Assembly (NCBI RefSeq): GCF_000378245.1
Contig: NZ_KB899494.1
Span: 248,001-312,000 of the forward strand
From: Aromatoleum toluclasticum ATCC 700605
Lineage (GTDB): Bacteria > Pseudomonadota > Gammaproteobacteria > Burkholderiales > Rhodocyclaceae
Reading direction: 5' to 3'
DNA: 64,000 nt
The translations under genes and the position numbers were made by a program. This document shows positions 2,206 through 63,302 of the stretch, in pieces (positions within the stretch are counted from its first letter, which is position 1; the number at the start of each line of letters is the position of its first letter). The notes beneath the pieces are model-generated. The model searched no databases. It was not told where the DNA came from and was given only the letters and a program-made list of their open reading frames with translations.

Positions 2206-2221
2206 TTCCCGAATGCGGGAA
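2206..2221. promoter_or_regulatory. TTCC/GGAA palindrome, candidate activator site
   Basis: TTCCCGAATGCGGGAA is a 16-bp inverted repeat with 6-bp perfect arms. It matches three other palindromes in this window (46484, 48960, 60806) of form TTCCYGR-N2-KCRGGAA. It sits about 180 bases upstream of a weak sigma-54-like element and 245 bases before the triheme c7 gene at 2465. This suggests that the distant c7 gene shares regulation with the 34-64 kb cluster. Confidence 0.5.
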
Positions 2222-21459: not shown

Positions 21460-21460
21460 A

Positions 21461-45387: not shown

Positions 45388-45574
45388 TTCGCGGCTTCCT
45401 CTCCATTCTTGCAATTTTGGCATAGCGGCCAAGATGCTCGAGGATGGAACGGCGCGTCAATGCAAGGACGGCAATTTCCGTGAAGATGACAACGATCGCA
45501 ACGAGGTAGGCGCTCCAGACGTAGAGGCCGTCGCCGCCCATCGCCCAGAATTCGCTCCAGCTGCCCCAGTTCAT
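45368..45574 (-). CDS. Second CcmD-like protein
   Basis: 68 aa from the ATG at 45574, overlapping the stop of the ccmC-like gene. MNWGSWSEFWAMGGDGLYVWSAYL is strikingly close in layout to CcmD at 29090 ([23 protein letters not shown]). One membrane helix and a basic tail follow. It forms a partial second System I set with the neighbouring CcmC and thioredoxin. Confidence 0.82.
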   Translation of the reverse strand: MNWGSWSEFWAMGGDGLYVWSAYLVAIVVIFTEIAVLALTRRSILEHLGRYAKIARMERKPRNDDSRF

Positions 45575-46344: not shown

Positions 46345-46386
46345 CTTGTCGTGCGTTTTCGATGGCGGGGTCGTGAGATTGATCTA

Positions 46387-46401
46387 GCAATCGGCATGCC
46401 G
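46387..46401 (-). promoter_or_regulatory. Sigma-54 promoter of the second ccmC operon
   Basis: On the minus strand, CGGCATGCCGATTGC matches TGGCAYG-N4-TTGC at every informative position except the first. Transcription would begin near 46375, about 31 bases before the CcmC-like start. A TTCC/GGAA palindrome lies about 85 bases upstream at 46484. Confidence 0.7.
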
Positions 46402-46483: not shown

Positions 46484-46499
46484 TTCCTGATTTCAGGAA
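46484..46499. promoter_or_regulatory. TTCC/GGAA palindrome, candidate activator site
   Basis: TTCCTGATTTCAGGAA is a perfect 16-bp inverted repeat. It is upstream of the sigma-54 element at 46387 by a distance typical for an enhancer site. It is one of four related palindromes in the window. Confidence 0.6.
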
Positions 46500-46570
46500 T
46501 TCGTCCTCGCGGGTGCGGATCAGGGTTGTGCCGTCTCTCCATGCATGATCGAGCGCGGCACGCAAACGGC

Positions 46571-47500
46571 TCAGCCGGGAATGTAGATACCGGCGCTGCG
46601 GATCGCCTTGACCAGTTCGCTGGTCGATTGTTCGAGCAGTTTGATCCCTGCCTCGAAATCCTTGCGCGATGCGGCCGCTTCGGCTTCGCCGCGGAGCGAG
46701 CCTGCGTTCGTGAGGAATTCCGTGACGCGCGGGCTCATCGGGGCCCCGGCGAGTTTTTCCTCGAGCAATACCTTGACGAGCATCTTGTGCGTCTCGTTGC
46801 GGTCGATCTCGTAGTGATATTCCTCTTCCTTCGATGCGAAGTTCAAGGAACGTACCAGCGTGTCGCCGGAGCGCATCGAACTGACCGATGCCTTGGCAAG
46901 GAGGTATGCCTGTTCGAGAATCGTCCGGCCGCTCGCATATTGGCCGGCTGCTGCCTTGCGTTCTGCGTCGGCGATGAGCGCCTCGACCTGCCGGCTGCTT
47001 TCCTGCGATTCCTTGTTACCCTTTTCCGACGCAATTCGCTGCTGCGCGGAGAGCAGGGCGCGGACACTTTCGAGCTTGTTCTTGTAGTCCGTTTCGACTT
47101 TCTTTCCGTTGACGCTTTCCGGTGCGGCAAGCCGTGCCGCTTCGAACATGGTCTTGCTCGCAGTGGAAAGCAGGCTGGAAGCCTTTGCGAGATCGCCTGC
47201 ATCGAAGGCGGCCTTTGCTTGCGTGTATTGTTCCTTGGCCGCCTTGCGCTTCTCGATGGCAGGCGCTTCGCCGCTCGACTCGATCTGGCGTGCTGCAGTG
47301 GATTTTTCGATCAAGGTTCCAACCGACTCGAAACGGCGCTCGAGCTGGGCTCGGTCGGGCTCGTTGGACTGGAGGCGGGTCGATGCGCTGCCCGGCGGTA
47401 CGGGCTCGGTCTGCGCCATCGTCGCGCCGCCCGAGGCAAGCGTCAGTGCCAGTGCAAGCGCAGCATGCCCAAGAGTCCCACTACGGTAGTTCGGTTTCAT
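46571..47500 (-). CDS. Helical periplasmic protein, paralog of 41639 gene
   Basis: 309 aa from the ATG at 47500 after AGGAGT. The signal peptide spans about 1-29. The mature part is alpha-helical with coiled-coil character (RAQLERRFESVGTLIEKS, KQYTQAK-type segments). The C-terminal half carries LNFASKEEEYHYEIDRNETHKMLV and ends GIKLLEQSTSELVKAIRSAGIYIPG, matching the protein at 41639. The family is not recognised. It follows two triheme cytochrome genes on the same strand, so it may help their assembly or form part of their complex. Confidence 0.65.
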   Translation of the reverse strand: MKPNYRSGTLGHAALALALTLASGGATMAQTEPVPPGSASTRLQSNEPDRAQLERRFESVGTLIEKSTAARQIESSGEAPAIEKRKAAKEQYTQAKAAFDAGDLAKASSLLSTASKTMFEAARLAAPESVNGKKVETDYKNKLESVRALLSAQQRIASEKGNKESQESSRQVEALIADAERKAAAGQYASGRTILEQAYLLAKASVSSMRSGDTLVRSLNFASKEEEYHYEIDRNETHKMLVKVLLEEKLAGAPMSPRVTEFLTNAGSLRGEAEAAASRKDFEAGIKLLEQSTSELVKAIRSAGIYIPG

Positions 47501-47544
47501 CACTGTGGACTCCTGGGCATGGATGTTGTTGGCTGCGAAACGAC

Positions 47545-48204
47545 TTACTGACCCGTGCGGGCGACCGGGCCGTCCTTCTTCTTCGAGTGGCACAGGCGGC
47601 ACTCGGACACCGGGAAGGCAACCTTGCCGTGGCACACGCCGCATTTCTGCCCGAGAAGGATGGCCGCCATGCTGATTTGGTTGGCGCCTTTCTGCGGGAC
47701 GAAGATTGCGGGGTGGCAGTTGGAGCAGTCAAGCCACTCGGTGTGCTGCTTGTGCGGATAGACGACGTCCGGCATCGATCCCTTGACTTCGCGGACGATG
47801 TTCAAATCCATCACGATCGGTACCGCGTTTGTATCCACACGGTCCCAGCGCGGGTTGATCGCGCGATCTTCGAGGGCCTTGACCCAATTGACGCGGTTTC
47901 CGGCGTTGCTGCGGGGAAGCGTTTCGAAGGCGGACAGCGGCGGCATCAGCGCTGCAGTGCCTTCGCTGCCGGGGTCGTGGATGCCGTCCTGCATCGGAGG
48001 CAGGTTGCGTTGATTGGCCGGCTTGAGCAGGCGGTTGAAACGGTTGACGTCAGTTGCCGGCGCGGTTGTGGCCGGAGCGGCCGCCGGGGCTGCGGCGGAG
48101 GGGGCCGCGGGCTTGCTCTTGGCGTCTTGGGCGATGACGGGTGCCGAGCCGAACAGGGTGGCGGCGAACACGGTCAGGAGAAGGGTTGGAATACGGCGGG
48201 TCAT
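47545..48204 (-). CDS. Triheme c7-type cytochrome, long type
   Basis: 219 aa, signal peptide about 1-25. An Ala/Pro-rich region and a NxVxWVKALEDRAINPR segment precede YPHKQHTEWLDCSNCH (heme 1 at 160-164), CGVCH (188-192) and CRLCH (202-206). It is a paralog of proteins at 2465 and 55219. It overlaps the short triheme gene upstream by 4 bases. The pair probably acts together as a periplasmic electron relay. Confidence 0.92.
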   Translation of the reverse strand: MTRRIPTLLLTVFAATLFGSAPVIAQDAKSKPAAPSAAAPAAAPATTAPATDVNRFNRLLKPANQRNLPPMQDGIHDPGSEGTAALMPPLSAFETLPRSNAGNRVNWVKALEDRAINPRWDRVDTNAVPIVMDLNIVREVKGSMPDVVYPHKQHTEWLDCSNCHPAIFVPQKGANQISMAAILLGQKCGVCHGKVAFPVSECRLCHSKKKDGPVARTGQ

Positions 48205-48632
48205 TTCTTGCTACCTCCTTGCCCGACGGGAACTGCCAGTTTCTGGATGGTGCTTTCGTGCACTTGCGTGGGGGTGTTCGGTTTGCCGGAATGGCACAGA
48301 TCGCAGTTCTCGACGGACCAGGCGACTTCGCCGTTGTGGCAGGCGCCACAGAACTGGCCGTCAATGATCTTCAGCATCGTGATCTCGTTGCCGCCGGCCT
48401 TGAACTGGAAGCCGAGGTCCGCGTGGCAGACCTTGCAGCGGAAGCGGATCCGGTGGAACCAGTGCGGAAAGATCGCCGGCCGCATGCCGGCCGCGTCGGC
48501 ATAGTTGTTGATGACGATGTCGCCGTACTCGGCGCGGCTGTCGGACGGGGTCCACAGCGTGATGGCCACTACGGCAAACAGCAGCGCAGTGAGCCCACGA
48601 CGGACTCTTGTTACCCACGGGACCTGCTTCAT
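48201..48632 (-). CDS. Triheme c7-type cytochrome, short type
   Basis: 143 aa, signal peptide about 12-34. The sequence GMRPAIFPHWFHRIRFRCKVCH (heme 1 at 66-70), CGACH (95-99) and CDLCH (110-114) gives three hemes in about 50 residues. It is nearly identical in this part to the protein at 54824, showing a recent or conserved duplication. It is first in an operon with the long triheme and the helical protein genes. Confidence 0.93.
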   Translation of the reverse strand: MKQVPWVTRVRRGLTALLFAVVAITLWTPSDSRAEYGDIVINNYADAAGMRPAIFPHWFHRIRFRCKVCHADLGFQFKAGGNEITMLKIIDGQFCGACHNGEVAWSVENCDLCHSGKPNTPTQVHESTIQKLAVPVGQGGSKK

Positions 48633-48840
48633 AGTTCAACCCTCTTCATAACGTGATCCGTTCCTGCCAGCCAAATTGCACGAGTTACGGTCGACTGACA
48701 ACCAAACGAGTGTAATCGTCCCCTTCGCTGCTCCGGACTCGTGGAGCGTCGGAAGTTCATGCTTCCGCACCGTGGTCACCCGCCTCTCGATCCTTGCTTC
48801 CCTGCCGGCGTTGCCGCGGTACGTCGGACCGGTCCTGCAT

Positions 48841-48855
48841 GCAAAATTCGGGCCC
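48841..48855 (-). promoter_or_regulatory. Candidate sigma-54 promoter of the triheme operon
   Basis: On the minus strand, GGGCCCGAATTTTGC keeps GG, C, CG and TTGC of the consensus with exact spacing, with two mismatches. The leader would be about 200 bases long, which is unusual, but a matching palindrome lies about 105 bases upstream. Confidence 0.5.
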
Positions 48856-48959
48856 GAGTGCTATTACCATTGGCTTATCGGCAAGAAAAGCGGCTGGCTG
48901 AAGGGAGCTGCCATTCCGGCTTCGAAAATGTAACCGATTGTATCGTTTGCGGGAATGGA

Positions 48960-48975
48960 TTCCTGGATTCGGGAA
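48960..48975. promoter_or_regulatory. TTCC/GGAA palindrome, candidate activator site
   Basis: TTCCTGGATTCGGGAA shares both arms with the palindromes at 2206, 46484 and 60806, with one internal mismatch in symmetry. It lies upstream of the triheme operon and just after the end of the TPR gene. Confidence 0.55.
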
Positions 48976-49002
48976 ATGGCGGGCAAGTCGCGTCGATGCA
49001 GG

Positions 49003-49647
49003 CTATGGCTTGCCGGTGGGCGTTGCACGTGACGCTTGCTTGTCCGCGCCATCGTGCTGAGGCTCCGAGCGCCATTCCCACAGGGCCGATTCCGCTCGCG
49101 GACGGAATGGATCGTCCATCGGTGCGAGGTGGAGGTAGGTTTGCATTGCACCCATCGCGCCGGGGCGGTCACCGAGCTCTTCGAGGGTTTGCGCGAGACC
49201 GTAGTACGCGTTGACCTGATTGCGCCGCAGTTCGATTGCCGATTCGAAAAAATCGCGAGCCTGTTTCCATTGCTCGAGTCCGATCAGCGCGAACCCCATA
49301 TTCACGTGCGCCTCGGGAAGCCTCGGGGCCAGGGTCAGAACCTGATGAAACGCCGTGAGTGCGTAGTCATACTGACGCATCTGAAGCATTGCGACGCCCT
49401 GCTCGAATCGCAACCGAACTTCGTTCTGCGTTGCATCGGTGGCGGAGGGCAGGCGAGGCTTCGCCCTGAATATGTCCGCGTATGCAAGGCGTGTCTGGGG
49501 GAGTCCATGGGGTGGGTCGGGTTTCCAGGCCAGCAGAGCCCCGAGGCCCACGGTCGCGAGCACCGTGACGGCTATCGCACGGCGGCGAACATCGCGGCGG
49601 CTGCGGGGGCGTTGGGCGGGGCGGTCGGGGTTGTGTGTGTTCTGCAT
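49003..49647 (-). CDS. Membrane-anchored TPR protein
   Basis: 214 aa from the ATG at 49647. One N-terminal helix (about 24-41) anchors it, followed by TPR repeats (VRLRFEQGVAMLQMRQYDYALTAFHQVLTLAPRLPEAHVNMGFALIGLEQWK and NAYYGLAQTLEELGDRPGAMGAMQTYLHLAP taken as two to three units). Its 5' end overlaps the heme-copper-like gene by 76 bases. A CcmI-like role in presenting apocytochromes to ResB/ResC is possible but not shown. Confidence 0.75.
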   Translation of the reverse strand: MQNTHNPDRPAQRPRSRRDVRRRAIAVTVLATVGLGALLAWKPDPPHGLPQTRLAYADIFRAKPRLPSATDATQNEVRLRFEQGVAMLQMRQYDYALTAFHQVLTLAPRLPEAHVNMGFALIGLEQWKQARDFFESAIELRRNQVNAYYGLAQTLEELGDRPGAMGAMQTYLHLAPMDDPFRPRAESALWEWRSEPQHDGADKQASRATPTGKP

Positions 49648-50891
49648 AATCCGAGAATTCGAGGTACGGCGACGCATGCAAAGTATCCGACGCCCGCTAT
49701 CGTGATCGCGCCGCCGGTCCCCGTCAGGGCGGCGGCGAGGATTGCGGCCGGATCTGCCCCCTCTCCGCTGAACGCGACCTTGCGGGGGGCGCCGAGAATC
49801 CCGCTCCAGGCGAGGCCGCAGATCAGTGTAGTGATCCCGAAGGCATATACCGAGAGCGGTCGGGTGCTGGGAGGGGGGAAATGTTCGGCGTCCGCGGCTG
49901 GCGATATGCGGGCGAGAACGGCCGCCATCTGGGCGAGCGTGAACGCGCCGATTGTACCGTGATAATGGGCGGGCACCATGGTTGTCTGGCTGTCGATTGC
50001 GGTACCCGCAAGAATGCCGATGCTATATAGCCCAAGTGATGCGATAAAACTGTCTGCGCGGCGGACCTCCTTGCGCGAGAGCAGAAGAAGACCGAAGGCC
50101 AGTGCCGCCGGCCAGTTGGCCCATCTCATGACATTCGTATGAGTGGAATGGAGCGTGCCGTGATCCAGGCCGGCAAGCAGAAGCGCCGGTGCGATGGTTG
50201 CGGGCAGCGATGCGGCGGCGAAAAGGGGAATGGCGAGTCGCGACGAGACGCTCGTCATTCCGGTGCGCTCCGCCAGACGGAGCCACATTGCCATCATGAG
50301 GGTGACAAAGCCGAATTGGAGTATGTGGCCGGCGCCCCAGAGGGCATCGACAAGCCCCATCCGCTGGTGCAGGGCAAGTGCGAGATAGACCGTCCCCATA
50401 CAGAATGGCCAGCGCGCGATCGCAAAACCCCATTCAGCGGCGTCGCGGGGGCGAGCCAGGGATATTCCGCCCGTACCGAGTCCCGCGGTGACAAAGATTG
50501 CGAGGGATCCGAGAAATACCGGGTGGTCTACATAGGGGAAGTAGTTTGCGAGGACGGGATTTCCCGGGGCGAACAGGCCTGCAGCGACGATCCCGATGGC
50601 CCCGGCTGCGCCAGTGACAAGAAGGCCTTGTGCCGTACGGTGTCGACTCGACGGCAGGGTCTCGGTCCACATCGCTCCGGCCATCGCGAAGTACCAGAGC
50701 AAGGTGGCGAGATTGACGTGTACGACGAGGGCGCGCGGGAAGCTGTCCGGCGGCACCAGAGATGTGAGGACCGGCGTGCGGGCGAGTACGAGCGCAGTGG
50801 CCGCGACGGCGGAAAGCCCCAGGAATGACGCGGCGAGCAGCAGCCAGCGATGTGATACGCCGGGGGGAGTGTCGAACCTCTTTGCCATCAT
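49572..50891 (-). CDS. Divergent heme-copper oxidase subunit I-like membrane protein
   Basis: 439 aa with about 12 membrane helices. Histidines sit where heme-copper subunit I ligands are expected: His58 (VVHVNLATLLW, low-spin heme), His189 (WGAGHILQFGFV, CuB-like), His244/248/251 (LDHGTLHSTHTNV) and His309/311 (PAHYHGTIGAF, heme pair). The layout is closest to the NorB/cbb3 side, but the usual subunit partners are not adjacent. It starts within an ATGA overlap with the ResC gene stop. Function as an oxidase, NO reductase or a heme/quinol membrane module is undecided. Confidence 0.65.
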   Translation of the reverse strand: MMAKRFDTPPGVSHRWLLLAASFLGLSAVAATALVLARTPVLTSLVPPDSFPRALVVHVNLATLLWYFAMAGAMWTETLPSSRHRTAQGLLVTGAAGAIGIVAAGLFAPGNPVLANYFPYVDHPVFLGSLAIFVTAGLGTGGISLARPRDAAEWGFAIARWPFCMGTVYLALALHQRMGLVDALWGAGHILQFGFVTLMMAMWLRLAERTGMTSVSSRLAIPLFAAASLPATIAPALLLAGLDHGTLHSTHTNVMRWANWPAALAFGLLLLSRKEVRRADSFIASLGLYSIGILAGTAIDSQTTMVPAHYHGTIGAFTLAQMAAVLARISPAADAEHFPPPSTRPLSVYAFGITTLICGLAWSGILGAPRKVAFSGEGADPAAILAAALTGTGGAITIAGVGYFACVAVPRILGLCRTHTTPTAPPNAPAAAAMFAAVR

Positions 50892-51700
50892 ACGGCTCCC
50901 TGATGAGGGGTTGCCGATATGAACGGCACGCCGAAGAAGGTCAGGAAGGCGGTGACGAATACGGCAAGAATCAGGCCGGCGTGCATGGGGGGCGTCAGCC
51001 GGTATGCCAGTCGGGCGTGGATCGTAAACGCCACGGTGAGCCAGGTGATGAATGCCCAGGTTTCGAGAGGGTCCCAGGCCCAGTAACGACCCCAGGCGTC
51101 CTGCGCCCAGATGGCGCCGGCGATGAGCATCAGTGTGTGGAATATCAGCCCGATCGCCATGCAGCGGAAGGCAAGTTCGTCAAGTTGGGGATTGGGTGGC
51201 AACTGCTGCAATCGCGTGATTCCGATGCCGGCTTGCCGCATCAGGATCACGCAGGACAAGCCGACCGCGACCAGAACCGCTCCAAGGAACACCTTGCCCA
51301 AACCAATATGGATAAAGAGCCAGGGGGTGTTGTAGGTCGGAGGGTAGTGCCCCTCGCCGGGGTGGGTGACCATCAGCCAGCCGAGCATGATGAACATCAG
51401 TGGCAATACGATCGCTGCAGTTGCGCGAATCCGCGGGATGCGCCAGTAGGCGAAGGTGTAGGCGCACATCAGGCTCCAGATATTCGAGCAAAGTATCTCG
51501 AACATCGTGATGAACGGTCCGTGCCCGAGACGCTCCCAGCGCAGGCCCATGGATACGGTCTGCAGTGCGAGTCCTGTCAGCGTCAGCCCGAGGACCGCGC
51601 GTTCCGGCCGTTTACCGAGCACGACACCGATGACGGCGATGATGCCGGCTAGCACGTATGCGGCTACTGCGGTCCAGAGGATCTGAAGTTCTCGTTCCAC
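50888..51700 (-). CDS. ResC/CcsA-type System II cytochrome c synthase subunit
   Basis: 270 aa from a GTG at 51700, one base after the ResB stop. About eight membrane helices are predicted. The WWD motif reads WGRYWAWDPLETWAFITWL, typical of CcsA/ResC heme-binding proteins, with conserved His in LFIHIGLGKV and LIFHTLMLIAG. With ResB it would attach heme to apocytochromes independently of System I. Confidence 0.9.
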   Translation of the reverse strand: MERELQILWTAVAAYVLAGIIAVIGVVLGKRPERAVLGLTLTGLALQTVSMGLRWERLGHGPFITMFEILCSNIWSLMCAYTFAYWRIPRIRATAAIVLPLMFIMLGWLMVTHPGEGHYPPTYNTPWLFIHIGLGKVFLGAVLVAVGLSCVILMRQAGIGITRLQQLPPNPQLDELAFRCMAIGLIFHTLMLIAGAIWAQDAWGRYWAWDPLETWAFITWLTVAFTIHARLAYRLTPPMHAGLILAVFVTAFLTFFGVPFISATPHQGAV

Positions 51701-51701
51701 G

Positions 51702-52781
51702 TCATGCGTCCCACGGTTTTACTGCGAATTTTTGCCAAAAATGTACGCCCAGACTGGCGATGGCCACAATGCAGGCGGCGAGCAGCCATGGCAGGGTCCA
51801 GTCGTAGAACACCCGATACCCCATCCAGCTGCGCAGACCGTCGAATTCGAGGCGACCGTCCGGCAGCTCGATCGAGTCGCCCGGCTGCATCTCATGACGC
51901 GTGCTGCCGATTCGTACGATCAATTTGTATCGTTCGGGCAGGCGGAAACTGCTATGGCGCTCGGGATCGAGTACGGTCTCATCGAAGTCGAGCATCACCC
52001 ACACGGGAACGCTGCTGTCAGGAGGTGTCCATTCAGCTGCCTGGCTGTACTGATTGCCGGGATATGGAGGCAACTGTACCGATCCGTACATCGCCTCTCC
52101 GGCCTTCGGCAGCCAGCGGAACGTGGGAGCGAAGCCCTTGTTGAAGGTCGTGTAGAAACGGTAGTTTTCCAGTATCAATGGATCCTGGTCGCCGATCTCC
52201 GCTTCGTGCCAGTGTCCCTGCATGTCGGCCCATGCGACATGGTTACGCGTGGCTCCCCGTTGCAGTCCAGGGGCATAATCGATTGTAAATCCCTTATTGA
52301 CGAAGCTGACCTTTGACAATTCTCCTGTATGCCATGGACCTCGTTCGGAGGCCGCAAGAACGCCGTCGAAGGCTGTGCCAACCGTAACGCCGGCGTGCCC
52401 GTTCAGATACGTCAGGCGGCCTGCTGCGACAAGCAACAGCAGAACGATCAGGCTGAGGTGAAAGACCAGCAGCGCGATCTGACGCCTGAATACGCCATTG
52501 GTTGCAACGGCAGCCAGCAGGTTGAGGGCGAGCAGCAACAGGGGCGCGACCAACGGCCACGTGCGTGCGCCCTCCCGAAGATAGGCGAAGGCTGTGCCCG
52601 CTCCGAGAAGTGCAATCAGCCACAGCGTGAGACGCAGCGATGCCAGCGTGCGCAGAAATTTCACCGGATAGAGTCCGGATCGAGTCTCCCCGTCGTCACA
52701 CTTGGTGCGGCGAGGAGACTGTCCCCGCGAGTCCCATGCTGACGTCAGGTTTCCGCGTTCCCTTGCGCCGTCGCCAATCAT
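51702..52781 (-). CDS. ResB/CcsB-type System II cytochrome c synthase subunit
   Basis: 359 aa from the ATG at 52781, which overlaps the stop of the upstream NHL gene (ATGA); a downstream GTG (VKFLRTLASLRLT) is an alternative that would remove about 40 polar residues. Three membrane helices lie near the N-terminus and one near the C-terminus (LPWLLAACIVAIASLGVHFW), bounding a large periplasmic domain with GDSIELPDGRLEFDGLRSWMGYRVFYD. The start LASLRLTLWLIALL is typical of ResB. It is paired with ResC. Confidence 0.85.
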   Translation of the reverse strand: MIGDGARERGNLTSAWDSRGQSPRRTKCDDGETRSGLYPVKFLRTLASLRLTLWLIALLGAGTAFAYLREGARTWPLVAPLLLLALNLLAAVATNGVFRRQIALLVFHLSLIVLLLLVAAGRLTYLNGHAGVTVGTAFDGVLAASERGPWHTGELSKVSFVNKGFTIDYAPGLQRGATRNHVAWADMQGHWHEAEIGDQDPLILENYRFYTTFNKGFAPTFRWLPKAGEAMYGSVQLPPYPGNQYSQAAEWTPPDSSVPVWVMLDFDETVLDPERHSSFRLPERYKLIVRIGSTRHEMQPGDSIELPDGRLEFDGLRSWMGYRVFYDWTLPWLLAACIVAIASLGVHFWQKFAVKPWDA

Positions 52782-53869
52782 TCCGAGTCGCCCTTGGCTC
52801 CGCCAAGGTATTGAAAAATCGTTACGCGGCCGTTGAACGTGTCGGCAACGAACACCCGGTTGAAGGCATCGACCCATACTCCGGACGGCAGGTAGAAATT
52901 GCCCGTACCTTGGCCGACGCCCCCGATCGGCATCAGGAAGTCACCGGTTTCGTTAAATACAAGCAAATTGTCGTAATAGGATTCCACCACGTAAATGTTG
53001 CTTTCGCTGTCGACCCCGACGCCCTTGGGGCGGACCAGGTTGCCGTAGTACAGGCCACGTTTTCCCAGGATCTGCGGGGCTGAATCGTCTGCCAGCGGCA
53101 GTATTTGCACGCGGCTGTTCATGGTGTCGGTAACGTAAAGTTTTCCACCCCCAATAGCGAGGTGTGTCGGGAAGTTGAACTCGCCCGGTGCCTCCCCCCG
53201 TTCGCCGATCACCCGTTCAAGGCGACCGTCGGTGCCGAAAACCTTGATGTCGTGGGCGTAAGTGTCGGCGACGTAAAGCAGTCCGGTGGTCGGGTCGCGC
53301 GCCAGTCCCGTCGGCCGTTGCAGAACCCCAGCCCCGATCGGCGGCAACGGGTTACCTTGTGCGTCAAGGTGCGCTACGAGTTGCAGTTCCGCATCTGCAA
53401 CCCAGACGCCTCCGCCGTCGGCAAGTGCTACGCCGATAGGCGCGACAAAGCGGCGAGCCTCGACCGCGTGATCCCAGACCTTCAGTTCTCCTGCGGGCTT
53501 GTCGAAGACGAAAACGGCTGCACGACTTACATCGGTGACAAAAATCCGCTCTTGCGCGTCCGCGACAACGGCTTGCGGCCGTTGGAGCACGTTGGGCTTT
53601 TCCTCGTCGAAAAGACCGACCGCCCACGCAAGAAATCCGACGAATCCGGTCGCAGCGTCTTCGCGCACGAAGTTTTCTTCGCCGGTTAGCTGGCCCGCGA
53701 ACTGATAACGAGGGATCTCCGGTTCGGCGGGCCACATGAGCCGCTTGCCTTCCGGGGCGTCGAGCAGGCCGTAGTGGAGGCGCGCCGGTATGGCCTGCGT
53801 GGCACAGCCGCTCAGTGCGACCGAGAGCGTCAGCAATAACCAGCAGAAAGGGGAGAGACTGGGCTTCAA
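52778..53869 (-). CDS. NHL-repeat lipoprotein
   Basis: 363 aa from a TTG at 53869 that overlaps the stop of the preceding NHL gene (TTGA), with GGAG upstream. The lipobox LSGC lies near residue 20. A six-bladed propeller of NHL repeats follows (PQAVVADAQERIFVTDVSRAAVFVFD, PTGLARDPTTGLLYVADTYAHDIKVF, PTHLAIGGGKLYVTDTMNSRVQILP, PKGVGVDSESNIYVVESYYDNLLVF, PSGVWVDAFNRVFVADTFNGRVTIF). It is presumably anchored at the outer membrane. Its operon encodes c7 cytochromes and ResB/ResC. Confidence 0.82.
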   Translation of the reverse strand: MKPSLSPFCWLLLTLSVALSGCATQAIPARLHYGLLDAPEGKRLMWPAEPEIPRYQFAGQLTGEENFVREDAATGFVGFLAWAVGLFDEEKPNVLQRPQAVVADAQERIFVTDVSRAAVFVFDKPAGELKVWDHAVEARRFVAPIGVALADGGGVWVADAELQLVAHLDAQGNPLPPIGAGVLQRPTGLARDPTTGLLYVADTYAHDIKVFGTDGRLERVIGERGEAPGEFNFPTHLAIGGGKLYVTDTMNSRVQILPLADDSAPQILGKRGLYYGNLVRPKGVGVDSESNIYVVESYYDNLLVFNETGDFLMPIGGVGQGTGNFYLPSGVWVDAFNRVFVADTFNGRVTIFQYLGGAKGDSE

Positions 53870-54816
53870 GGCGTTCTCCGTTGTGGCGGAATAATCGCAA
53901 AGACACCGATCCGGCCCGCAGGGCCGTCGGAAATATACGCGCGAAAGGCGTCGATAGAGATCGCCGTGATTTCTATCAATCCCAGATGTCGCGGCTCGAA
54001 CGACGCAAGTGCTTGTCCGTCGGCGAAGACTTTCAATCGGTTGTCGCCGCGGTCGACAACCCACGTGCGCCCATGTGCGTCGATCGCCATGTCGGCGGGG
54101 GATATCAGAGTACCTTCACCATAACGGGCGATGATCGCGCCTTCGCGGTCGAAATCGATGATGCAGCGGCACCGTGGATCGATTCCGGAAACCCGTTCGC
54201 GACTGGCGGCCAGCAATGTCGCGCCCGGGAATTCGCCGGCAAAGCCGTCGCCACGACCGACCAGTGGTTCGCTCATCCTTCCCGACGGATGGAATGCAAA
54301 AACACCGCCTGCTGCGTCGGATATCCAGACGCGATTGAGGGTCGGTTCGATGACGAGATCTGCAGGCTGGAGGACGTCATACTTGGCGGCAAAGCTTGCG
54401 ATGCGACGGCCGTCGCGCGTCAGTCGGACGATTTCGCCCCGATCCGGGCGCAGCACGTACACACTCCCGTCCGGTCCCGCCTTCAGGCGTGTCCCGGGCA
54501 GAGGGGAAATCTCGCCCAAGGGAGTCACCGCCTGAGTGACCGTGTCGACGCGCAGCAGGAGACGTTGTGCGCTGTCCGCCACGTAGAGGTCCGGTCCGTT
54601 TGCGGTGAGCGCAGACGGGTGGACCAGTTTGATGTAGGGGCCGTGGGGCGGCTGACCGTGTACCGGACTTACAGGGGCGGAGAAGCCACCTGCGATGACT
54701 CCTTGCGGCGCGATCAGCTCGTTTACCCCAGCGTGCGGAATGTCACCGGAGTCGGGTTGCGCGTGTCCCCCGAGTGCCACCGATATCAGGATTCCGCCGA
54801 TTATCTTTTTCCACAT
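53866..54816 (-). CDS. Secreted NHL-type beta-propeller protein
   Basis: 316 aa from the ATG at 54816, 7 bases after the triheme gene stop. The signal peptide spans about 1-20 (WKKIIGGILISVALGGHA). NHL-like blades include PSALTANGPDLYVADSAQRLLLRVD, PADLVIEPTLNRVWISDAAGGVFAF and PADMAIDAHGRTWVVDRGDNRLKVF. The repeats are more divergent than in the neighbouring lipoprotein. A CRC pair near residue 220 is not a heme motif. The function is unknown. Confidence 0.72.
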   Translation of the reverse strand: MWKKIIGGILISVALGGHAQPDSGDIPHAGVNELIAPQGVIAGGFSAPVSPVHGQPPHGPYIKLVHPSALTANGPDLYVADSAQRLLLRVDTVTQAVTPLGEISPLPGTRLKAGPDGSVYVLRPDRGEIVRLTRDGRRIASFAAKYDVLQPADLVIEPTLNRVWISDAAGGVFAFHPSGRMSEPLVGRGDGFAGEFPGATLLAASRERVSGIDPRCRCIIDFDREGAIIARYGEGTLISPADMAIDAHGRTWVVDRGDNRLKVFADGQALASFEPRHLGLIEITAISIDAFRAYISDGPAGRIGVFAIIPPQRRTP

Positions 54817-54823
54817 GATTGGG

Positions 54824-55222
54824 TCACCAGCGGCCGGGGCCGAGGGTTTCATGTCCGCCGAAAATCCCTGGAGGCAGGCCCGCCTTGCCGGAATGACACA
54901 GGTCGCAATTTTCGACAGACCATGCGGTTTCTCCGTCATGACACGCGCCGCAAAAGCGGCCGTCGATGATGTCAGTCATCTTGATCTGGTTTGCTCCCGC
55001 GCGCATTTTGAAGCCCAGTTCGGCATGGCAGACCTTGCAGCGGAAACGTATGCGATGAAACCAGTGCGGAAAGATGACAGGCCGCATCCCGGCAGCTTCA
55101 GCCACTCTGTTCAAGACGACGTCGGCATATTCTGCGAGCGCTGGCGGCGCGGCGAAAATCACGAACATCTCAAGCAATATCGCGGCCATGACCAGTACGA
55201 GGGGGTGCCTCTGCCGGGTCAT
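54824..55222 (-). CDS. Triheme c7-type cytochrome, short type (second copy)
   Basis: 132 aa from the ATG at 55222, overlapping the stop of the long triheme gene. The signal peptide spans about 8-30. Heme motifs are CKVCH (62-66), CGACH (91-95) and CDLCH (106-110), with FPHWFHRIRFRCKVCHAELGF almost identical to the copy at 48201. The gene order relative to its long partner is reversed compared with the 47.5-48.6 kb pair. Confidence 0.93.
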   Translation of the reverse strand: MTRQRHPLVLVMAAILLEMFVIFAAPPALAEYADVVLNRVAEAAGMRPVIFPHWFHRIRFRCKVCHAELGFKMRAGANQIKMTDIIDGRFCGACHDGETAWSVENCDLCHSGKAGLPPGIFGGHETLGPGRW

Positions 55223-55878
55223 TTGCCTTTTCCCTCCTTTTTGGGACTCGGTGCGCGTTCGTTCGTGGGCGCAGGGGGCGAGAGGGGCGCGGCGGAAGGC
55301 AGCGCCTTGGCGGCCTCCTCCCGCTCCAGTTCTGCCATGGCGTCGGTGCGCTTCACGCTGTGGCAGCGTGCGCATTCAGTCAACGGAAATGCGACCGCGC
55401 CATGACACACCCCGCATTGCTCGCCTTGAAGTATCAGAAACATGCTTATCTTGGATGCGCCGCGCTGTTTCTTGAACAAGTGATCGTGGCAGTTGCTGCA
55501 GTCGAGCCACTCGTTATGGATGCTATGCGGGAAGCGCACAACCGGCATCCCGCCATTGAGATTCAACAGAACATCCTTGTCGTACTTCTCGCTGACGAGC
55601 GGCTGACGGAGGCTCGCGCGCGGGTTGATCTGACCTTCCTTCAAGGCGCGTACCCAGCGCACCTGGTTCCCGGCAGTGTCGGGCGATAGCGGGGTCAGCG
55701 CATCGGCCGGCTGTTGCAGGACCTTGACTGCCGGGCCGTTGGGATCGCGAAGGCCGTCCTTGGCGATCGGCGCCCAGATCCGCTCGTCAGCCGGGGATGG
55801 CCGTGCGACGACAAGCATCAGGACGAGCAGGCATTTCGCGAAACGCGTGAAGGGGACGCAGGGCAAGCGAACGAACAT
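55219..55878 (-). CDS. Triheme c7-type cytochrome, long type (second copy)
   Basis: 219 aa from the ATG at 55878 (a TTG at 55899 is also open). The signal peptide spans about 12-30. Heme motifs are CSNCH (127-131), CGVCH (155-159) and CARCH (169-173), with FPHSIHNEWLDCSNCH before the first. A Lys/Glu/Pro-rich tail ends the protein. It lies 109 bases after the outer-membrane barrel gene on the same strand. Confidence 0.92.
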   Translation of the reverse strand: MFVRLPCVPFTRFAKCLLVLMLVVARPSPADERIWAPIAKDGLRDPNGPAVKVLQQPADALTPLSPDTAGNQVRWVRALKEGQINPRASLRQPLVSEKYDKDVLLNLNGGMPVVRFPHSIHNEWLDCSNCHDHLFKKQRGASKISMFLILQGEQCGVCHGAVAFPLTECARCHSVKRTDAMAELEREEAAKALPSAAPLSPPAPTNERAPSPKKEGKGK

Positions 55879-55986
55879 GATGGCGGTGCACCGGTTCAAG
55901 CGGAACGGTCCGGAAGGTTATCGGATTTAGTCGGTCCGCAGTACCGAAGGTTTCATCTGCCGGTTTCACTCGGCGGTCAAGCGTCA

Positions 55987-58446
55987 TCAGAAGGAGCCGA
56001 ACTCGCGGCTGACCCGGAAGAACAAGAGCTGATTGCGCCGCCCTTCGATCTCGGCGATCCGGTACTGAAGCTCGGTATCGAGGCGACCGATCCGGTAAAG
56101 CAGGCGTTGGTCGAGATCAAGTGTCGCGCGGTTTTGCTCCCTCGCGGCATCGGCATTGCCGAAGCGGCGGGAATCGTCGCGGGCGGTGTTGGCGCGGAAA
56201 TCGAGCCGATAGCGAAGCCCACGGATGCCCATGACACGCCGGTGGCCATATCCAAGCCCCCCGCCCAGGCTTGTGTTGCCGCTGCGCGTCGACGTATCCA
56301 CTAGTACCGGGCGGCCGAATTCGTCGCTGACAACGACCACCTCATTGCGGTCGGACGACTGTCGTGACATCTGCCAGGTCAGGTTCGAGTTAAGCTCGGA
56401 ATAGGCGTTGATGCGCCAGTTTCCCGTCAGCTGGACGTTCAACATCTGAAACGATGAAGTGGTTTCACCGGTAGTTCGGTTGTCGGAGGCGCTGACGCTC
56501 AGATAGCCCGACAGTGCCTCGCCGGCATTCGCCTGCAGGCTGACGCTGGCTCCATGGGTCAGCGTGGTTGCGTCCGAGCTTCCGAGCCCGGTCGCCCTCG
56601 ACTTCGTAATCGACTGATTCAGGCTGCTGTACACGGTCGTCTGTTCGGGGAGCTGCCAGCTTCTCGTCAACGTGTGCCCGAGCGAGCCGTTGATCGTACG
56701 GACGGAATCCCCGTCGCCGGTGGTGGCGTTCGAAGCCGAGAGCGAAGAGAACCAGACGTAGTCGAAATTGCCGAATCGCAGCGAGTCCCCGCTATAGCTT
56801 GCCCCGATCGATTCGTTCGAGTTCATCTGGTTGTTGGTGTCGAAAGTCACCCCTGCAGAGCCGAACAGACTCAAGTTGCGGCTGGCCTGGTAGCTAAGGC
56901 TTGCCGCGCCTCCCATTGTGCGATTGTCGAAGGTGGCATTTTCAAACGCACTGTTCGTCTGGAAATATCGGACGTTCGCCGAACCCCGCCACTTGGATTC
57001 ACTTGGCGTCCAGTTGGCATAGCTGAAAATCTGCGTGCTCTGCGTCTTCGCAGTCAGGGACGCGCCGTCCGTCCCCAAGTCGAACTGTTGACCAGTAAAG
57101 TTTGCATTGGTATTGAACTGGAGTTCGTCGCTGAATGTGTAGCTGTGCCCGCCCCCGAGGAAGAAACTCTTGGTCGTCTGGTCGGCGGAGTGATTCGTCG
57201 AGAAATCGCCCGCGACGTTGAAGGACTGCCGGTCCAGTGTGTTCGAGAAATTGCCATACACCCGATCGACGGTGTCGGAGCCGAAGTCACCAGTGATCGC
57301 GCTGCGATCGTAGCCGCCAGATGCAGACCATTGTCCGACCTGCGGACGGTAGTTCTGGCGCAGTGCGAGGCGGCTCTGTTTGACGTTCGTATTCGAAAAG
57401 CTGCCGTCGCTGCGACTGTCGGCGAGTGACAGCGATGCCGAAAACGGGAATCGGCTCTGCGGAAAGACATTCACTGATCCGGAACCGTTAACAGACGTCC
57501 CGATCAGGTTGTTCGAAGCCGCGTCCCCCGTATCCTGCGAGCGCACGGTGGTCAGTGCGAAGTCGCCGGATACCAGCGCGATGTACGGTTTCCAGATATA
57601 GGAGCTTGCCCGCAATCGCGCTTCGTAGACCTGGCTGGTCGAATTGGTCGAATTGTCCGACCAATAGCTTCGCAAGCCGGTGGAAAGCGCTCCGCCCCAG
57701 CGAATCGGGGCGAGTCCCCAGCCAAGATTGCGTGATGCGGCGCTGGCGGGGGGCGGGGCTGTTTTCGTCGTCCCCGGCAGGGTCGGGAGCAGATCGGTAT
57801 CCAGTTCGTCGGCGGGAAGGAACTCGTCGCTGCCGACGACCTTGGCGTCGGCAGTTCCCTGTCTTGGGGGCGGGACGTTCTCTTCAGCGATCGTGGGTAG
57901 GGCCGGGGAACCTGCCGCCGCCAGCTTCATCTTCCGCGTAGCATCTGTGGTCCGGTCGAGGGTGTTGCTTCTTTCGATTGATATTCTGCGCGGCGGAAGG
58001 GCTGCCGACTCCTTGCCGGAAAGTCGCTCTTCGGGTCGCGGTCCCGCCGGAGGGAGCGATGAAGGAGCCGTGTCGGTGACCGGGAGCGAAGGCTCGGCGG
58101 GCAAAGGAGGAAGGACGGGAGCGTTGGGCGGAAGTTGAAAGTTCCACGCCAGTGTCAGCGGAGCCGGGTCATGACTTGCCTGTTCCGTGTCGGCCTGGGG
58201 GCTTGGCGATGCGGTCGCGGCCGGTTCGTCGTCGCGCTGCAGGCTTGCGAGGATGGTCGTCAAGCGCAGTCGCGGTTGAGCGGGCGATTCCGCTGATGCG
58301 GCTTGTCCGCCAATTGCGGGCATGGCCGTCACTCCAAGCAGAATCCCTCCGCACAACGGCGGAATCCCTCGGCGGCAAACGTCAAGGAGGTAGCGTGCCG
58401 CGTGGTCAGCGGTGACCGCTTTCGAGGCAGCTCCGATGTCCGACAT
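55987..58446 (-). CDS. Large outer-membrane beta-barrel protein
   Basis: 819 aa. The start (about 28-52) looks like a late signal region ending GQAASA. A Pro/Ser-rich stretch of about 200 residues follows. From about 240 to the end the sequence alternates polar and hydrophobic residues in many amphipathic strands rich in Ser, Asn, Tyr and Phe, ending in LLFFRVSREFGSF with terminal Phe, the BAM recognition signature. A barrel of over 20 strands is likely. No CXXCH is present. Given c7 cytochromes next to it and PpiC upstream, it may be the pore of an electron conduit or an export pore. The family was not identified with certainty. Confidence 0.8.
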   Translation of the reverse strand: MSDIGAASKAVTADHAARYLLDVCRRGIPPLCGGILLGVTAMPAIGGQAASAESPAQPRLRLTTILASLQRDDEPAATASPSPQADTEQASHDPAPLTLAWNFQLPPNAPVLPPLPAEPSLPVTDTAPSSLPPAGPRPEERLSGKESAALPPRRISIERSNTLDRTTDATRKMKLAAAGSPALPTIAEENVPPPRQGTADAKVVGSDEFLPADELDTDLLPTLPGTTKTAPPPASAASRNLGWGLAPIRWGGALSTGLRSYWSDNSTNSTSQVYEARLRASSYIWKPYIALVSGDFALTTVRSQDTGDAASNNLIGTSVNGSGSVNVFPQSRFPFSASLSLADSRSDGSFSNTNVKQSRLALRQNYRPQVGQWSASGGYDRSAITGDFGSDTVDRVYGNFSNTLDRQSFNVAGDFSTNHSADQTTKSFFLGGGHSYTFSDELQFNTNANFTGQQFDLGTDGASLTAKTQSTQIFSYANWTPSESKWRGSANVRYFQTNSAFENATFDNRTMGGAASLSYQASRNLSLFGSAGVTFDTNNQMNSNESIGASYSGDSLRFGNFDYVWFSSLSASNATTGDGDSVRTINGSLGHTLTRSWQLPEQTTVYSSLNQSITKSRATGLGSSDATTLTHGASVSLQANAGEALSGYLSVSASDNRTTGETTSSFQMLNVQLTGNWRINAYSELNSNLTWQMSRQSSDRNEVVVVSDEFGRPVLVDTSTRSGNTSLGGGLGYGHRRVMGIRGLRYRLDFRANTARDDSRRFGNADAAREQNRATLDLDQRLLYRIGRLDTELQYRIAEIEGRRNQLLFFRVSREFGSF

Positions 58447-58459
58447 TCGATGTTAGGTG

Positions 58460-59527
58460 TTACTTCGTTCCCGTCGACGTCTTCTTGCCAAGTGCCGCGT
58501 AGCGTTGCGTATTCAGCTCGATCTTTGCTTTCTTGCGGAGTTGTTCACGCAGGTTACGCCACGCATCGTCGCCCAGGTCGCGAGTGAGCAGATCTGTCGC
58601 GCGCGGCTTGACGGTCTCGAAGTCATGGTGCTTCGGCGGTTGCAAGGCGTCGTAACGGAACAGCGCGATTCCCTGGAGCACGCGTGTCGGCGGGGAGAGA
58701 TCACCGGGTTTCATGGCGTCGAGTTTCTCCTGAATGCCTTCGGGTAGCATGCCTTTGTGCATGTAGCCCAGATCGCCGCCGTTGGCGGCCGATTCATGAG
58801 CGGAGCGGTCGCGTGCCAGTTGGGCGAAATCCGCCCCCCCTTCGGTGAGCTTCAAGCGCAGGGATCCGGCCGCGGTTTCGGCCTCATCCCATGCCTTGGT
58901 CGGGGACGACGGATCGACCGGCAGCAGAATGAGGGAAATGCGCATCTTTTCCGGTTCGGTGAATTTCTCCGGATGAGCCTTGTAGTATGCAAACACCTTG
59001 TCCTGCGAGGGGGGGGGGACGTTGCGCGCTGTCGCCTCGATGGTGGCAAGCATGTCGTCCTCTTCAAGGCGTTGGCGCAGTGGGGGCAGTATCTGGGTGC
59101 GTTCCTGCTGCCAGCGTGCGCTCGATGCGTAACGTTTCTCGTAGTTGGTGATCTTCTCGTCAACCACTTTTGCGTCGGGCTTCATGCCCCGTCGTTTGAT
59201 TTCCTCGACCAGCAGGATGCGGTCGATCATGTTGGTGGCGACATCGCGCACCAACTGCTCGATCTCCCCTTCCGGGGGGGTGCCGTGATAGAACTTCTGC
59301 CGGATCGCTTCGCGGACGGCCGTGTCGAACTCCGCCGAGTTGATCACCTTGCCATTGACAATGGCGGCGAACGGGGGCGACACGTGCGGGTCGGCCGCTC
59401 TTTGTGAGCTTGTTGCCGTTGCCGGAGTCTTGACCGCGTCAGACTTTGCATTATCGCCGGCATGGGCGCCGAGGGAAACGAGCGTACAGGCGAGAGCGCC
59501 GGTAAGGGTGCGAGCAAAAGTTTTCAT
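58460..59527 (-). CDS. PpiC-type peptidyl-prolyl isomerase, secreted
   Basis: 355 aa from the ATG at 59527 with a signal peptide (about 1-23). A SurA/PrsA-like N-terminal helical part (IVNGKVINSAEFDTAVREAI) precedes a parvulin domain near 210-310 (MRISLILLPVD, GADFAQLARDRSAHESAANGGDLGYMHKGMLPEGIQEKLDAMKPGDLS). It likely helps fold the barrel or cytochromes encoded next to it. A run of ten G/C at 59009-59018 lies in the coding sequence. Confidence 0.88.
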   Translation of the reverse strand: MKTFARTLTGALACTLVSLGAHAGDNAKSDAVKTPATATSSQRAADPHVSPPFAAIVNGKVINSAEFDTAVREAIRQKFYHGTPPEGEIEQLVRDVATNMIDRILLVEEIKRRGMKPDAKVVDEKITNYEKRYASSARWQQERTQILPPLRQRLEEDDMLATIEATARNVPPPSQDKVFAYYKAHPEKFTEPEKMRISLILLPVDPSSPTKAWDEAETAAGSLRLKLTEGGADFAQLARDRSAHESAANGGDLGYMHKGMLPEGIQEKLDAMKPGDLSPPTRVLQGIALFRYDALQPPKHHDFETVKPRATDLLTRDLGDDAWRNLREQLRKKAKIELNTQRYAALGKKTSTGTK

Positions 59528-59605
59528 GACGGATTCTAATCTTGCCGGTCTGATTGCGTCGATCCCGGGTTGCATCGATATTTGACACGATTCGCCCGAG
59601 TCCGA

Positions 59606-59646
59606 CAAAAAAGAAAGGTCAGGCGACGACGTCACCTGACCTTTTT
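59606..59646. terminator. Bidirectional hairpin terminator
   Basis: AAAGGTCAGG and CCTGACCTTT form a 10-bp stem around an 11-base loop, flanked by A- and T-rich ends on both sides. It would end the tetraheme transcript from 59706 before the ppiC gene. Confidence 0.85.
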
Positions 59647-59705
59647 CTGACCGCGACGGTGTCGTAGCGCTAGGGCGCGAGCGACCCCGTGCGCGGCCTT
59701 TGCCC

Positions 59706-60533
59706 TTACTTGGTGTGGCAAGCCAGGCAGATCTGGCTGCCGGCCGTCGTCACACGCATGAAGCTGATGTTGTCGGAGCCCTTCGTCTCGACGTGGGGAT
59801 CGTGGCAGGACGCGCACTCGACCGACGGGCCCTTGACCGAGCCACCGGAGAAGTCACGGGTGTAGAGGATGATGTCGGACTTCGAGCGGGTGTTGTCCAC
59901 CGTGCTTGTGTCGATCCAGAACACCTGTGCGCTGTTGATCGTCTTCGTCTTCAGACGAGTCGCAGCGCCTGCGAAGTCGCTGTCGCGGCAGGAACCATTC
60001 ACGGTCGTGCCGGTGCCGGTGATGCCGCCGCCGCAGTACTGGATGCCGATCGGGTGGTCGTTACGGAGGTTCTGGCCGAGGTTCGCGATCGCATTGCCGC
60101 TCGCACCGATGATTTCGCCGCCGGCGGTCCAGACGTAGGCCTGGTTGGCGCCACCCGACGTGTAGCCGCCGCTGCCCGGGGCGTTGACCAGGTTGTCCAT
60201 CGCCTGGGTGCCGTCGTGGCACGACAGACAGGCGGCCGAGACGGAGCCGACGCCGAGCACTTCGCCGTCGATCGTCGACGAGTTGGCCGTCGAATAGGTC
60301 GTGTAGCCGGTGGCGGCGGGCAGGCCCTTGTTCCACAGCGGAGCCTCGACGCCGGTGTTTGCAGCGTGCGGCGTGTGGCAGAAGACGCAGATCTGCTCGG
60401 TGCTGCTTTGCTTGTTCGGGCCCGTGCCGGTCGTGGTCAGGTTGTGTTTTGTGGCGGAAATACCCGCAGACGCGGCGCTGGCGACGAGCGCGAGCGACGC
60501 GAGAGCGAGTGTCTGCTTCATGATTTTTTTCAT
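59706..60533 (-). CDS. Tetraheme cytochrome c, secreted
   Basis: 275 aa from the ATG at 60533. Signal peptide about 1-23. Four heme motifs: CVFCH (49-53), CLSCH (102-106), CASCH (240-244) and CLACH (269-273), with ATKHNL before the first, CHDPH at the third and CHTK at the end. The first and third carry CHxPH-like extra His. A long central region (about 107-239) without hemes is Gly/Asn/Thr-rich with two extra Cys. It is a paralog of the protein at 62066. Its spacing recalls small extracellular multiheme cytochromes (OmcE-like), but that is inference. Confidence 0.88.
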   Translation of the reverse strand: MKKIMKQTLALASLALVASAASAGISATKHNLTTTGTGPNKQSSTEQICVFCHTPHAANTGVEAPLWNKGLPAATGYTTYSTANSSTIDGEVLGVGSVSAACLSCHDGTQAMDNLVNAPGSGGYTSGGANQAYVWTAGGEIIGASGNAIANLGQNLRNDHPIGIQYCGGGITGTGTTVNGSCRDSDFAGAATRLKTKTINSAQVFWIDTSTVDNTRSKSDIILYTRDFSGGSVKGPSVECASCHDPHVETKGSDNISFMRVTTAGSQICLACHTK

Positions 60534-60649
60534 GGTAACCCCCGATGGATGGTTGTACGGTTTGCGAGTCAAGCGGGAGGCTACCTGAGACCCCGGCGGC
60601 CGCCTGTGATGACCGTCAAAACTGAAATTCAATCCTGCAGGCTATCTAA

Positions 60650-60664
60650 GCAGATTCCGGTCCA
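60650..60664 (-). promoter_or_regulatory. Candidate sigma-54 promoter of the tetraheme gene
   Basis: On the minus strand, TGGACCGGAATCTGC keeps TGG, CG and TGC with exact spacing; three positions differ from consensus. Transcription would begin near 60638, about 105 bases before the ATG. The palindrome at 60806 is about 140 bases upstream. Confidence 0.5.
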
Positions 60665-60805
60665 CATTTAGTGCGTTGTTGAATAACGCATTGTAAATAA
60701 GAGAAAAAATATGATTTGACCGGAGTCAGGATGTGTCGGAAGGCACGCGTACGACCCGCGGGTTGGCCTCTCTCGTGCTGAAAATCGAGAAGTGACAGCG
60801 GAATA

Positions 60806-60821
60806 TTCCTGAACTCGGGAA
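60806..60821. promoter_or_regulatory. TTCC/GGAA palindrome, candidate activator site
   Basis: TTCCTGAACTCGGGAA differs from perfect symmetry at one pair and matches the other three copies. It lies between the NHL lipoprotein gene end and the tetraheme gene promoter. Confidence 0.6.
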
Positions 60822-61981: not shown

Positions 61982-62065
61982 GGGATGGCCGGAAAGAGTG
62001 GAGGGTGTCGACAATGGTAAGGTGTGACGGAAAGTCGGTAGCAGCTTCCGTGCGAGGAGGCGCTG

Positions 62066-63287: not shown

Positions 63288-63302
63288 GTATTGTGCATCG
63301 GT

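Follow-up and report, generated by a model that had tools for sequence, protein, structure and literature searches.

A conserved palindrome as the probable upstream activator site of an NtrC-family regulator at sigma-54-like promoters of OmcE-like and c7-type cytochrome genes in Aromatoleum

Within a 64,000-nucleotide stretch of Aromatoleum toluclasticum ATCC 700605 (contig NZ_KB899494.1, positions 248,001 to 312,000; hereafter the window, whose own coordinates are used throughout), four copies of a 16-bp palindrome lie upstream of cytochrome and cytochrome-maturation genes. We propose that these palindromes are very probably the landing sites of a sensor-regulator pair encoded in their neighbourhood. 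It is highly likely that they serve as upstream activator sites of its NtrC-family response regulator (37743–39167), which would drive a small sigma-54 regulon from them. The sites, the promoter-like elements beside them, their conservation, the co-inheritance of sites and regulator and the homology of one target to OmcE are all observed directly in the sequence. We infer the link between regulator and sites, and do so strongly, because the two are inherited together; activation through sigma-54 is predicted from what is established for the NtrC family.

An earlier note on this DNA had reported four palindromes upstream of cytochrome or maturation genes, with sigma-54-like elements about 80–190 bases away. 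All four are exact 16-bp palindromes at 2206, 46484, 48960 and 60806 (sites 1–4; Table 1), the genes concerned are c7, CcmC-like, c7 and OmcE-like tetraheme, and the measured distances are 83–178 bp. The description of the sites as intergenic stands relative to the assigned genes, but long unassigned open reading frames (ORFs) of this GC-rich genome overlap sites 1–3. Allowing up to one mismatch, the pattern TTCCNGNNNNCNGGAA had 10 matches in the window where 2.45 were expected, and none of 100 dinucleotide shuffles reached 10. Its exact form occurs at 11 places in the whole genome (reversed-pattern control, 4), 4 of them inside the 64-kb window. The strict pattern TTCCYGNNNNCRGGAA is found at only 5 places in the 5.92-Mb genome (reversed control, 0), and again 4 of these are in the window. 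The fifth, C15:125041, lies within a 547-codon ORF, and at 50–200 bp from it no sigma-54-like element reaches a score of 9. With one mismatch the strict pattern matches at least 63 places in the genome, compared with 22 in the control. A 17-bp variant having three instead of two free positions between the arms, which serves as a spacer control, matches none. One of the one-mismatch places, C1:49404, was set aside as it looks coding by eye.

The sigma-54-like elements have the form GG-N10-GC and were scored out of 12 against the consensus TGGCACGN4TTGCW. All four are on the strand of the target gene. As many as 173 elements in the window score 8 or more, so a lone element means little and the weight falls on conserved spacing. 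We give the association over 50 sequences (the window, loci L081–L120 and nine more, other fetched loci being left out), which hold 62 strict palindromes. An element at 60–200 bp on either strand accompanies 39 of the 62 at a score of at least 9, 23 at 10 and 4 at 11; the corresponding shares of random positions in the same loci are 9.3, 2.5 and 1.1%. Outside Aromatoleum the counts are 11, 8 and 4 of 26 sites. In three shifted control windows the number of accompanied sites out of 62 was 4, 3 and 16 for a score of 9, and 2, 1 and 1 for a score of 10. The enrichment near sigma-54-like elements that the earlier note had suggested is thus borne out.

The sites are conserved among relatives. The four-site layout recurs at intervals of about 42–44, 2.5 and 12 kb in genomes G009, G011, G012 and G014, and is partial or split over contig breaks in G006, G007, G015 and G016. 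Identity of the arms to those of the window is 1.00, 0.98, 0.93 and 1.00 for sites 1–4, and that of the 30-bp flanks is 0.34–0.81 (34 copies including the window; the site-2 copies of G005, G008 and G013 were excluded from this comparison, though they are within the 37 listed sequences). At site 1, the arms are identical in 8 other Aromatoleum copies and the flanks are 55 and 73% identical. The distance to the sigma-54-like element is also kept: 83–85 bp in 9 genomes for site 2 (the G007 copy with one mismatch; 127, 138 and 95 bp in G005, G008 and G013), 94–105 bp in 8 genomes for site 3, 139–142 bp in 8 genomes for site 4 and 107–188 bp in 9 genomes for site 1. In G006, G011 and G016 the site-2 alignment stops just past the element, and the palindrome is still found at 83–85 bp; in G009 both the palindrome and the element of site 3 fall in an unaligned gap, and both are still present.

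These observations bear on two other explanations. The palindromes might have been picked by eye as chance features of a GC-rich genome, given that the motif was chosen after looking and that lone sigma-54-like elements are so common. We give this practically no credence and consider it already refuted, since as many as 11 other species have copies at the orthologous promoters; the whole-genome counts add to this. The refuting outcome named in the earlier note, a palindrome scattered at chance frequency, did not occur. A role as RNA hairpins or terminators of the upstream genes is very improbable. A 6-bp stem with a 4-base loop could form at each site, and at sites 3 and 4 the preceding same-strand gene ends no more than about 30 bp away. 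However, site 1 lies between divergent genes, and the flanks have no T-run on either strand when read by eye, without a terminator scan. The flanks have changed, too, where the spacing to the sigma-54-like element has been conserved, and 36 of 37 copies have the outer TTCC and GGAA unchanged in sequence, more than pairing alone requires.

The proposed activator has the features of an NtrC-family protein: a REC domain, a sigma-54 AAA+ domain, a Fis-type helix-turn-helix (HTH) and an adjacent HisKA/HATPase kinase. The GAFTGA motif that the earlier note had read in it is intact, at residue 214. Palindromic sites upstream of -24/-12 promoters, which also belong to the family picture, are present as judged by sequence and conservation. 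It does not score as one of the named equivalogs, its bit scores all being below the NCBIfam cut-offs (AtoC 435 against 714, NtrC 397 against 559, ZraR 340 against 760, PEP-CTERM response regulator 340 against 503). An ortholog occurs in 12 of 17 genomes of the genus, this one included, with 87–97% identity in 10 of the others and 80% in one; paralogs are 40–44% identical. In the family sample, 19 of 150 genomes pass an E-value of 1e-100, comprising 14 orthologs (61% or more, one of them partial) and 5 paralog-like proteins (43–49%).

The strict sites cluster around this gene. The 24 regulator-bearing genomes have 102 strict sites (reversed control, 14), of which 54 share a contig with the regulator and are no more than 60 kb from it, when 2.73 are expected; at least one such site is present in 20 of the 24. 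In 28 genomes without an ortholog (5 of the genus and 23 of 136 of the family) we found 42 strict sites, compared with 9 in the reversed control. This indicates that the reversed control understates the background, and that proximity to the regulator is the contrast that counts. Consistent with this, there are 1.5 sites per genome in the absence of the regulator and 2.0 outside the 60-kb range in its presence. The dedicated enhancer-driven regulon of the earlier note is supported by the conservation at orthologous promoters, by the association with sigma-54-like elements and by these 54 sites near the regulator, but in other families the motif is looser.

Alternatively, a different regulator merely co-inherited with the cluster could bind the palindromes, the NtrC-type protein acting elsewhere; we regard this as unlikely. 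Linkage alone cannot separate neighbours, the genus g49 retains the regulator and an OmcE-like gene without a palindrome at the omcE-like promoter, and the scans covered most, not all, ORFs of the window, with some scanned stretches giving no family match. On the other hand, an AAA+ activator is required at sigma-54 promoters, and besides the NtrC-type protein those scans revealed just one transcription regulator, of the NarL type. The HTH of the NtrC-type orthologs is also conserved along with the sites: its segment IGLSSLYRK is nearly invariant in orthologs of 54–97% identity (G173, G194 and G238 show minor changes), and the paralogs compared have a different sequence there. Of the named loci around relatives of the kinase, the 16 closest (L058–L073) include 10 with a strict site, when the reversed control gives 0. 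Their hosts are Aromatoleum, Azoarcus and metagenome-assembled genomes (MAGs) of Rhodocyclaceae and Zoogloeaceae, together with single MAGs labelled Gammaproteobacteria, Burkholderiales and Proteobacteria. The distant locus L073, whose kinase is 41% identical, also speaks against a different regulator: its strict site has sigma-54-like elements on both sides.

Under the proposal that the NtrC-type regulator acts at the palindromes, the kinase (39207–40757) would phosphorylate the regulator, which would then bind TTCCYG-N4-CRGGAA and contact the sigma-54 polymerase at a -24/-12 promoter about 80–180 bp away. The predicted targets are the OmcE-like (nanowire-type) cytochrome and its cluster, the c7-type cytochromes including the one about 45 kb off, and the CcmC-like gene. 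Our model of the kinase has a mean predicted local distance difference test score (pLDDT) of 77 and a predicted template modelling score of 0.41, the placement of domains being uncertain. It shows a periplasmic helical bundle of high local confidence and a DHp hairpin loop (residues 317–329) that bears C321 and C328; among solved folds the model is closest to the cytoplasmic domain of ZraS (9jfj). All 17 aligned sequences have both cysteines, as do most further orthologs. A redox state, or a metal, read through this C-x6-C loop is our guess for the signal, and a tentative one.

We observed similar promoters beyond Aromatoleum. In the family sample, OmcE-like genes occur in 12 of 150 genomes at E below 1e-70 and in 16 at 1e-20; both the OmcE-like gene and the regulator are present in 11 genomes, the former alone in 1 and the latter alone in 3 (Fisher test, 2.9e-13). 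In the order sample, the regulator is found at E 1e-130 in 13 of 399 genomes, namely this one and 12 others from nine further families; 9 of these 12 also encode an OmcE-like protein (E 1e-65 or better). We examined 27 OmcE-like promoters. Outside Aromatoleum, regulator-bearing genomes contributed 18 of these, each with a sigma-54-like element scoring at least 9; the same is true of 15 of 15 when one promoter is taken from each of 15 other genera. In this one-per-genus set the best palindrome scores 11 or 12 of 12 in 10 promoters, 10 in one and 9 in four, a score of 9 being the chance level for a 400-bp stretch. G046, which alone among the OmcE-bearing family genomes lacks the regulator, is without a palindrome (9/12), and its element scores 9/12. 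A relaxed form, TTCYYR-N4-YRRGAA, which was defined after viewing these promoters, is present in 22 of the 27 and missing in G046, G118, G153, G462 and G517; in G328, G449 and G304 it occurs as paired copies 28–33 bp apart. A dedicated OmcE-nanowire circuit spanning some ten families of one betaproteobacterial order, with a kinase switched by redox or metal through C-x6-C and a regulator that would act through one palindrome and sigma-54 on promoters of nanowire, periplasmic-cytochrome and cytochrome-assembly genes, is a possibility that we put forward with some doubt.

Several observations weigh against the proposed regulon or its breadth. The strict pattern exceeds its reversed control in the regulator-free genomes as well. 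Orthologous sites are not independent, so that p-values overstate the case. Strict sites are lacking in 6 of the 16 closest kinase loci; there is no strict site 3 in G016 and no strict site 4 on the G006 contig examined. The site-1 element is the weakest of the four, at 8/12, the site-4 element of G011 also scores 8/12, and some sites in G068 and G155 are only 2–4 bp from the -24 element. The shifted window that gave 16 of 62 at score 9 was that at 660–800 bp, though it gave 1 of 62 at score 10. In the genus g49 (G118 and G153), where the regulator and OmcE-like gene are present, the promoter has an 11/12 element and no palindrome. The G143 promoter has a relaxed palindrome only, G449 and G304 match only the post hoc relaxed form, and G328 has 255 bp between palindrome and element. 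The strict pattern is only modestly enriched across the 12 order-level genomes, with 24 places compared with 8 in the reversed control. The cysteine pair is absent from the kinases of G033, G419 and G540; as G419 and G540 retain strict sites upstream of omcE, the pair is not essential to the regulon.

Table 1. Positions of the palindromes, sigma-54-like elements and genes in the window
Feature	Position	Strand	Remarks
Palindrome 1	2206..2221	no strand	TTCCCGAATGCGGGAA; enhancer-like site of distal c7 gene
Palindrome 2	46484..46499	no strand	TTCCTGATTTCAGGAA; putative target CcmC-like gene
Palindrome 3	48960..48975	no strand	TTCCTGGATTCGGGAA; putative target triheme c7 gene
Palindrome 4	60806..60821	no strand	TTCCTGAACTCGGGAA; site of omcE-like promoter
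Sigma-54-like element, site 1	2399–2414	+	8/12; starts 178 bp beyond palindrome
Sigma-54-like element, site 2	46386–46401	-	10/12; starts 83 bp beyond palindrome
Sigma-54-like element, site 3	48840–48855	-	10/12; starts 105 bp beyond palindrome
Sigma-54-like element, site 4	60649–60664	-	9/12; starts 142 bp beyond palindrome
NtrC-family response regulator, proposed binder	37743..39167	-	Response_reg, Sigma54_activat, HTH_8
HAMP histidine kinase, putative partner of the regulator	39207..40757	-	HAMP, HisKA, HATPase_c; C321, C328 in DHp hairpin
Triheme c7-type cytochrome (putative site-1 target)	2465..3133, coding sequence from ATG at 2465	+	Cytochrome_C7 E 3.5e-11 on ORF 2213–3133; three CXXCH
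CcmC-like cytochrome assembly gene (putative site-2 target)	45571..46344	-	Cytochrom_C_asm E 2.9e-23
Triheme c7-type cytochrome, downstream of site-3 target	47545..48204	-	Cytochrome_C7 E 2.6e-10; three CXXCH
Triheme c7-type cytochrome (putative site-3 target)	48201..48632	-	Cytochrome_C7 E 4.9e-15; three CXXCH
System-II-type maturation pair, CcsB-like and ResB-like	50888..52877	-	Cytochrom_C_asm E 3.3e-29; ResB E 1.5e-13
Two NHL-repeat proteins	52778–54064, 53866–54939	-	NHL E 1.3e-25, 8.1e-06 (second weak)
c7-type cytochrome	55219..55899	-	Cytochrome_C7 E 6.7e-10; three CXXCH
819-aa protein, C-terminal Phe	55987..58446	-	homologs in related clusters
PPIC-type peptidyl-prolyl isomerase	58460..59635	-	Rotamase E 1.3e-14
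OmcE-like tetraheme cytochrome, 275 aa (putative site-4 target)	59706..60533	-	7tfs_A E 6.8e-31
NHL-repeat protein	60830..62014	-	NHL E 2.7e-29
Second OmcE-like tetraheme cytochrome	62066..62824	-	7tfs_A E 1.4e-14; four CXXCH

The earlier note had named cytochrome genes as the targets, which holds but understates the case, the centre being a cluster of the OmcE nanowire-cytochrome type (Table 1). The site-1 c7 gene is about 45 kb from the other targets. The 275-aa product downstream of site 4 matches chain 7tfs_A in two stretches, with all four CXXCH motifs present; 7TFS is OmcE, the tetraheme filament of Geobacter sulfurreducens (PMC12954529). By this homology the protein may form filaments in Aromatoleum. 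The genes around the OmcE-like pair also include one for a TPR protein. The CcsB-like gene matches TIGR03144 (CcsB) at E 6.3e-41, below the family cut-off. The 819-aa protein, which has no Pfam or NCBIfam match, is possibly an outer-membrane barrel; its residues 244–819 folded alone gave a pLDDT of 33, and this model was not used.

The two-component/sigma-54 mechanism is already known in kind. The system resembles AtoSC, ZraSR and NtrBC in the REC/AAA+/Fis-type HTH regulator with GAFTGA, the HAMP kinase, the -24/-12-like promoters and the upstream palindromes. It differs from them in its cytochrome/OmcE-type targets, in the C-x6-C pair of the DHp hairpin and probably in the palindrome itself. 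The tetraheme homolog links it to the OmcE nanowires of G. sulfurreducens, a likeness that is known here from sequence, whereas the host here is betaproteobacterial and a two-component/sigma-54 regulator is linked to the gene. It may also be compared with the PCC3/PCC4 porin-cytochrome clusters, in which a porin-like gene is proposed to act with multiheme cytochromes in extracellular electron transfer; the passages on them in PMC5566968 describe a protein of the inner membrane, but genes of the OmcE-like, NHL or regulator kinds do not appear there. Section 5.4 of PMC12307469 says that little is known about nanowire regulation. The accessible text of the Geobacter RpoN-regulon paper (PMC2725144) mentions neither omcE nor omcS, and that of the Desulfovibrio sigma-54 regulome paper (PMC4641369) contains no TTCC or GGAA string. 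Our search of open-licence PubMed Central (PMC) papers returned no recognised report of the palindrome or of a sigma-54 regulator of OmcE-type genes. With a regulator, probable sites, promoters and targets named together in Aromatoleum, which has cultured species, regulation of OmcE-type genes becomes directly testable. The palindrome would offer a handle for finding more genes of extracellular electron transfer, and the kinase is a candidate redox sensor.

Further sites and elements were seen near these features. Just past the regulator gene, within the 5' end of a sel1-type gene, there is a relaxed palindrome, TTCTCAGTTCCGGGAA (37719–37734), with no sigma-54-like element of score 9 following it in the window. 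In 16 loci checked, the best relaxed site at this place scores 12/12 in 14, G013, G025, G104 and G044 among them, and 11/12 in G006 and G153. The codon phase in which it is read differs between G044 and Aromatoleum, a hint that selection acts on the DNA. On the other side of the pair, a 9/12 sigma-54-like element, CGGTACGGTTATTGCG (40921–40936), lies upstream of a sel1 gene at 41019, divergent to the kinase gene; even with one mismatch allowed, there is no relaxed palindrome near it.

At C4:240607 in genome coordinates (L122:2108), 7.4 kb before the window, a gene for a secreted aspartyl-protease-like protein is preceded by a palindrome with one mismatch and a sigma-54-like element of 11/12, and we regard this promoter as a regulon candidate. 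In G009 and G011 the element is kept and the palindrome is weaker (10/12). The protease-like protein had no match in three other stretches searched. At L128 (G143:C1:3323219), at a distance of 2.8 Mb from the regulator, a further OmcE-like gene has a strict palindrome about 150–220 bp upstream and no clear sigma-54-like element. Two strict palindromes are 31 bp apart, start to start, at L116 (G044:C3:185307 and 185338). We do not claim a spacing periodicity of 11–12 bp, as six periods were scanned on partly redundant gaps.

The window also contains a multicopper oxidase gene (43230–44765) between the kinase/regulator pair and the CcmC-like gene. Its 17904–34069 region has genes for a NarX/NarL-like two-component pair and for a molybdopterin oxidoreductase, the latter accompanied by ferredoxin-type and NapC/NirT genes. 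System-I ccm genes (CcmF, CcmH-type) are found there too, which, with the CcsB/ResB pair, puts genes of both maturation systems in one window. At 63272–63318, two divergent sigma-54-like elements (11/12 and 9/12) lie 15 bp apart with no palindrome between them; the genes on either side encode a monoheme cytochrome and a cytochrome whose gene continues past the end of the window. G068 and G155 have a similar divergent pair next to a homolog of the monoheme gene, and there a strict palindrome sits in the gap.

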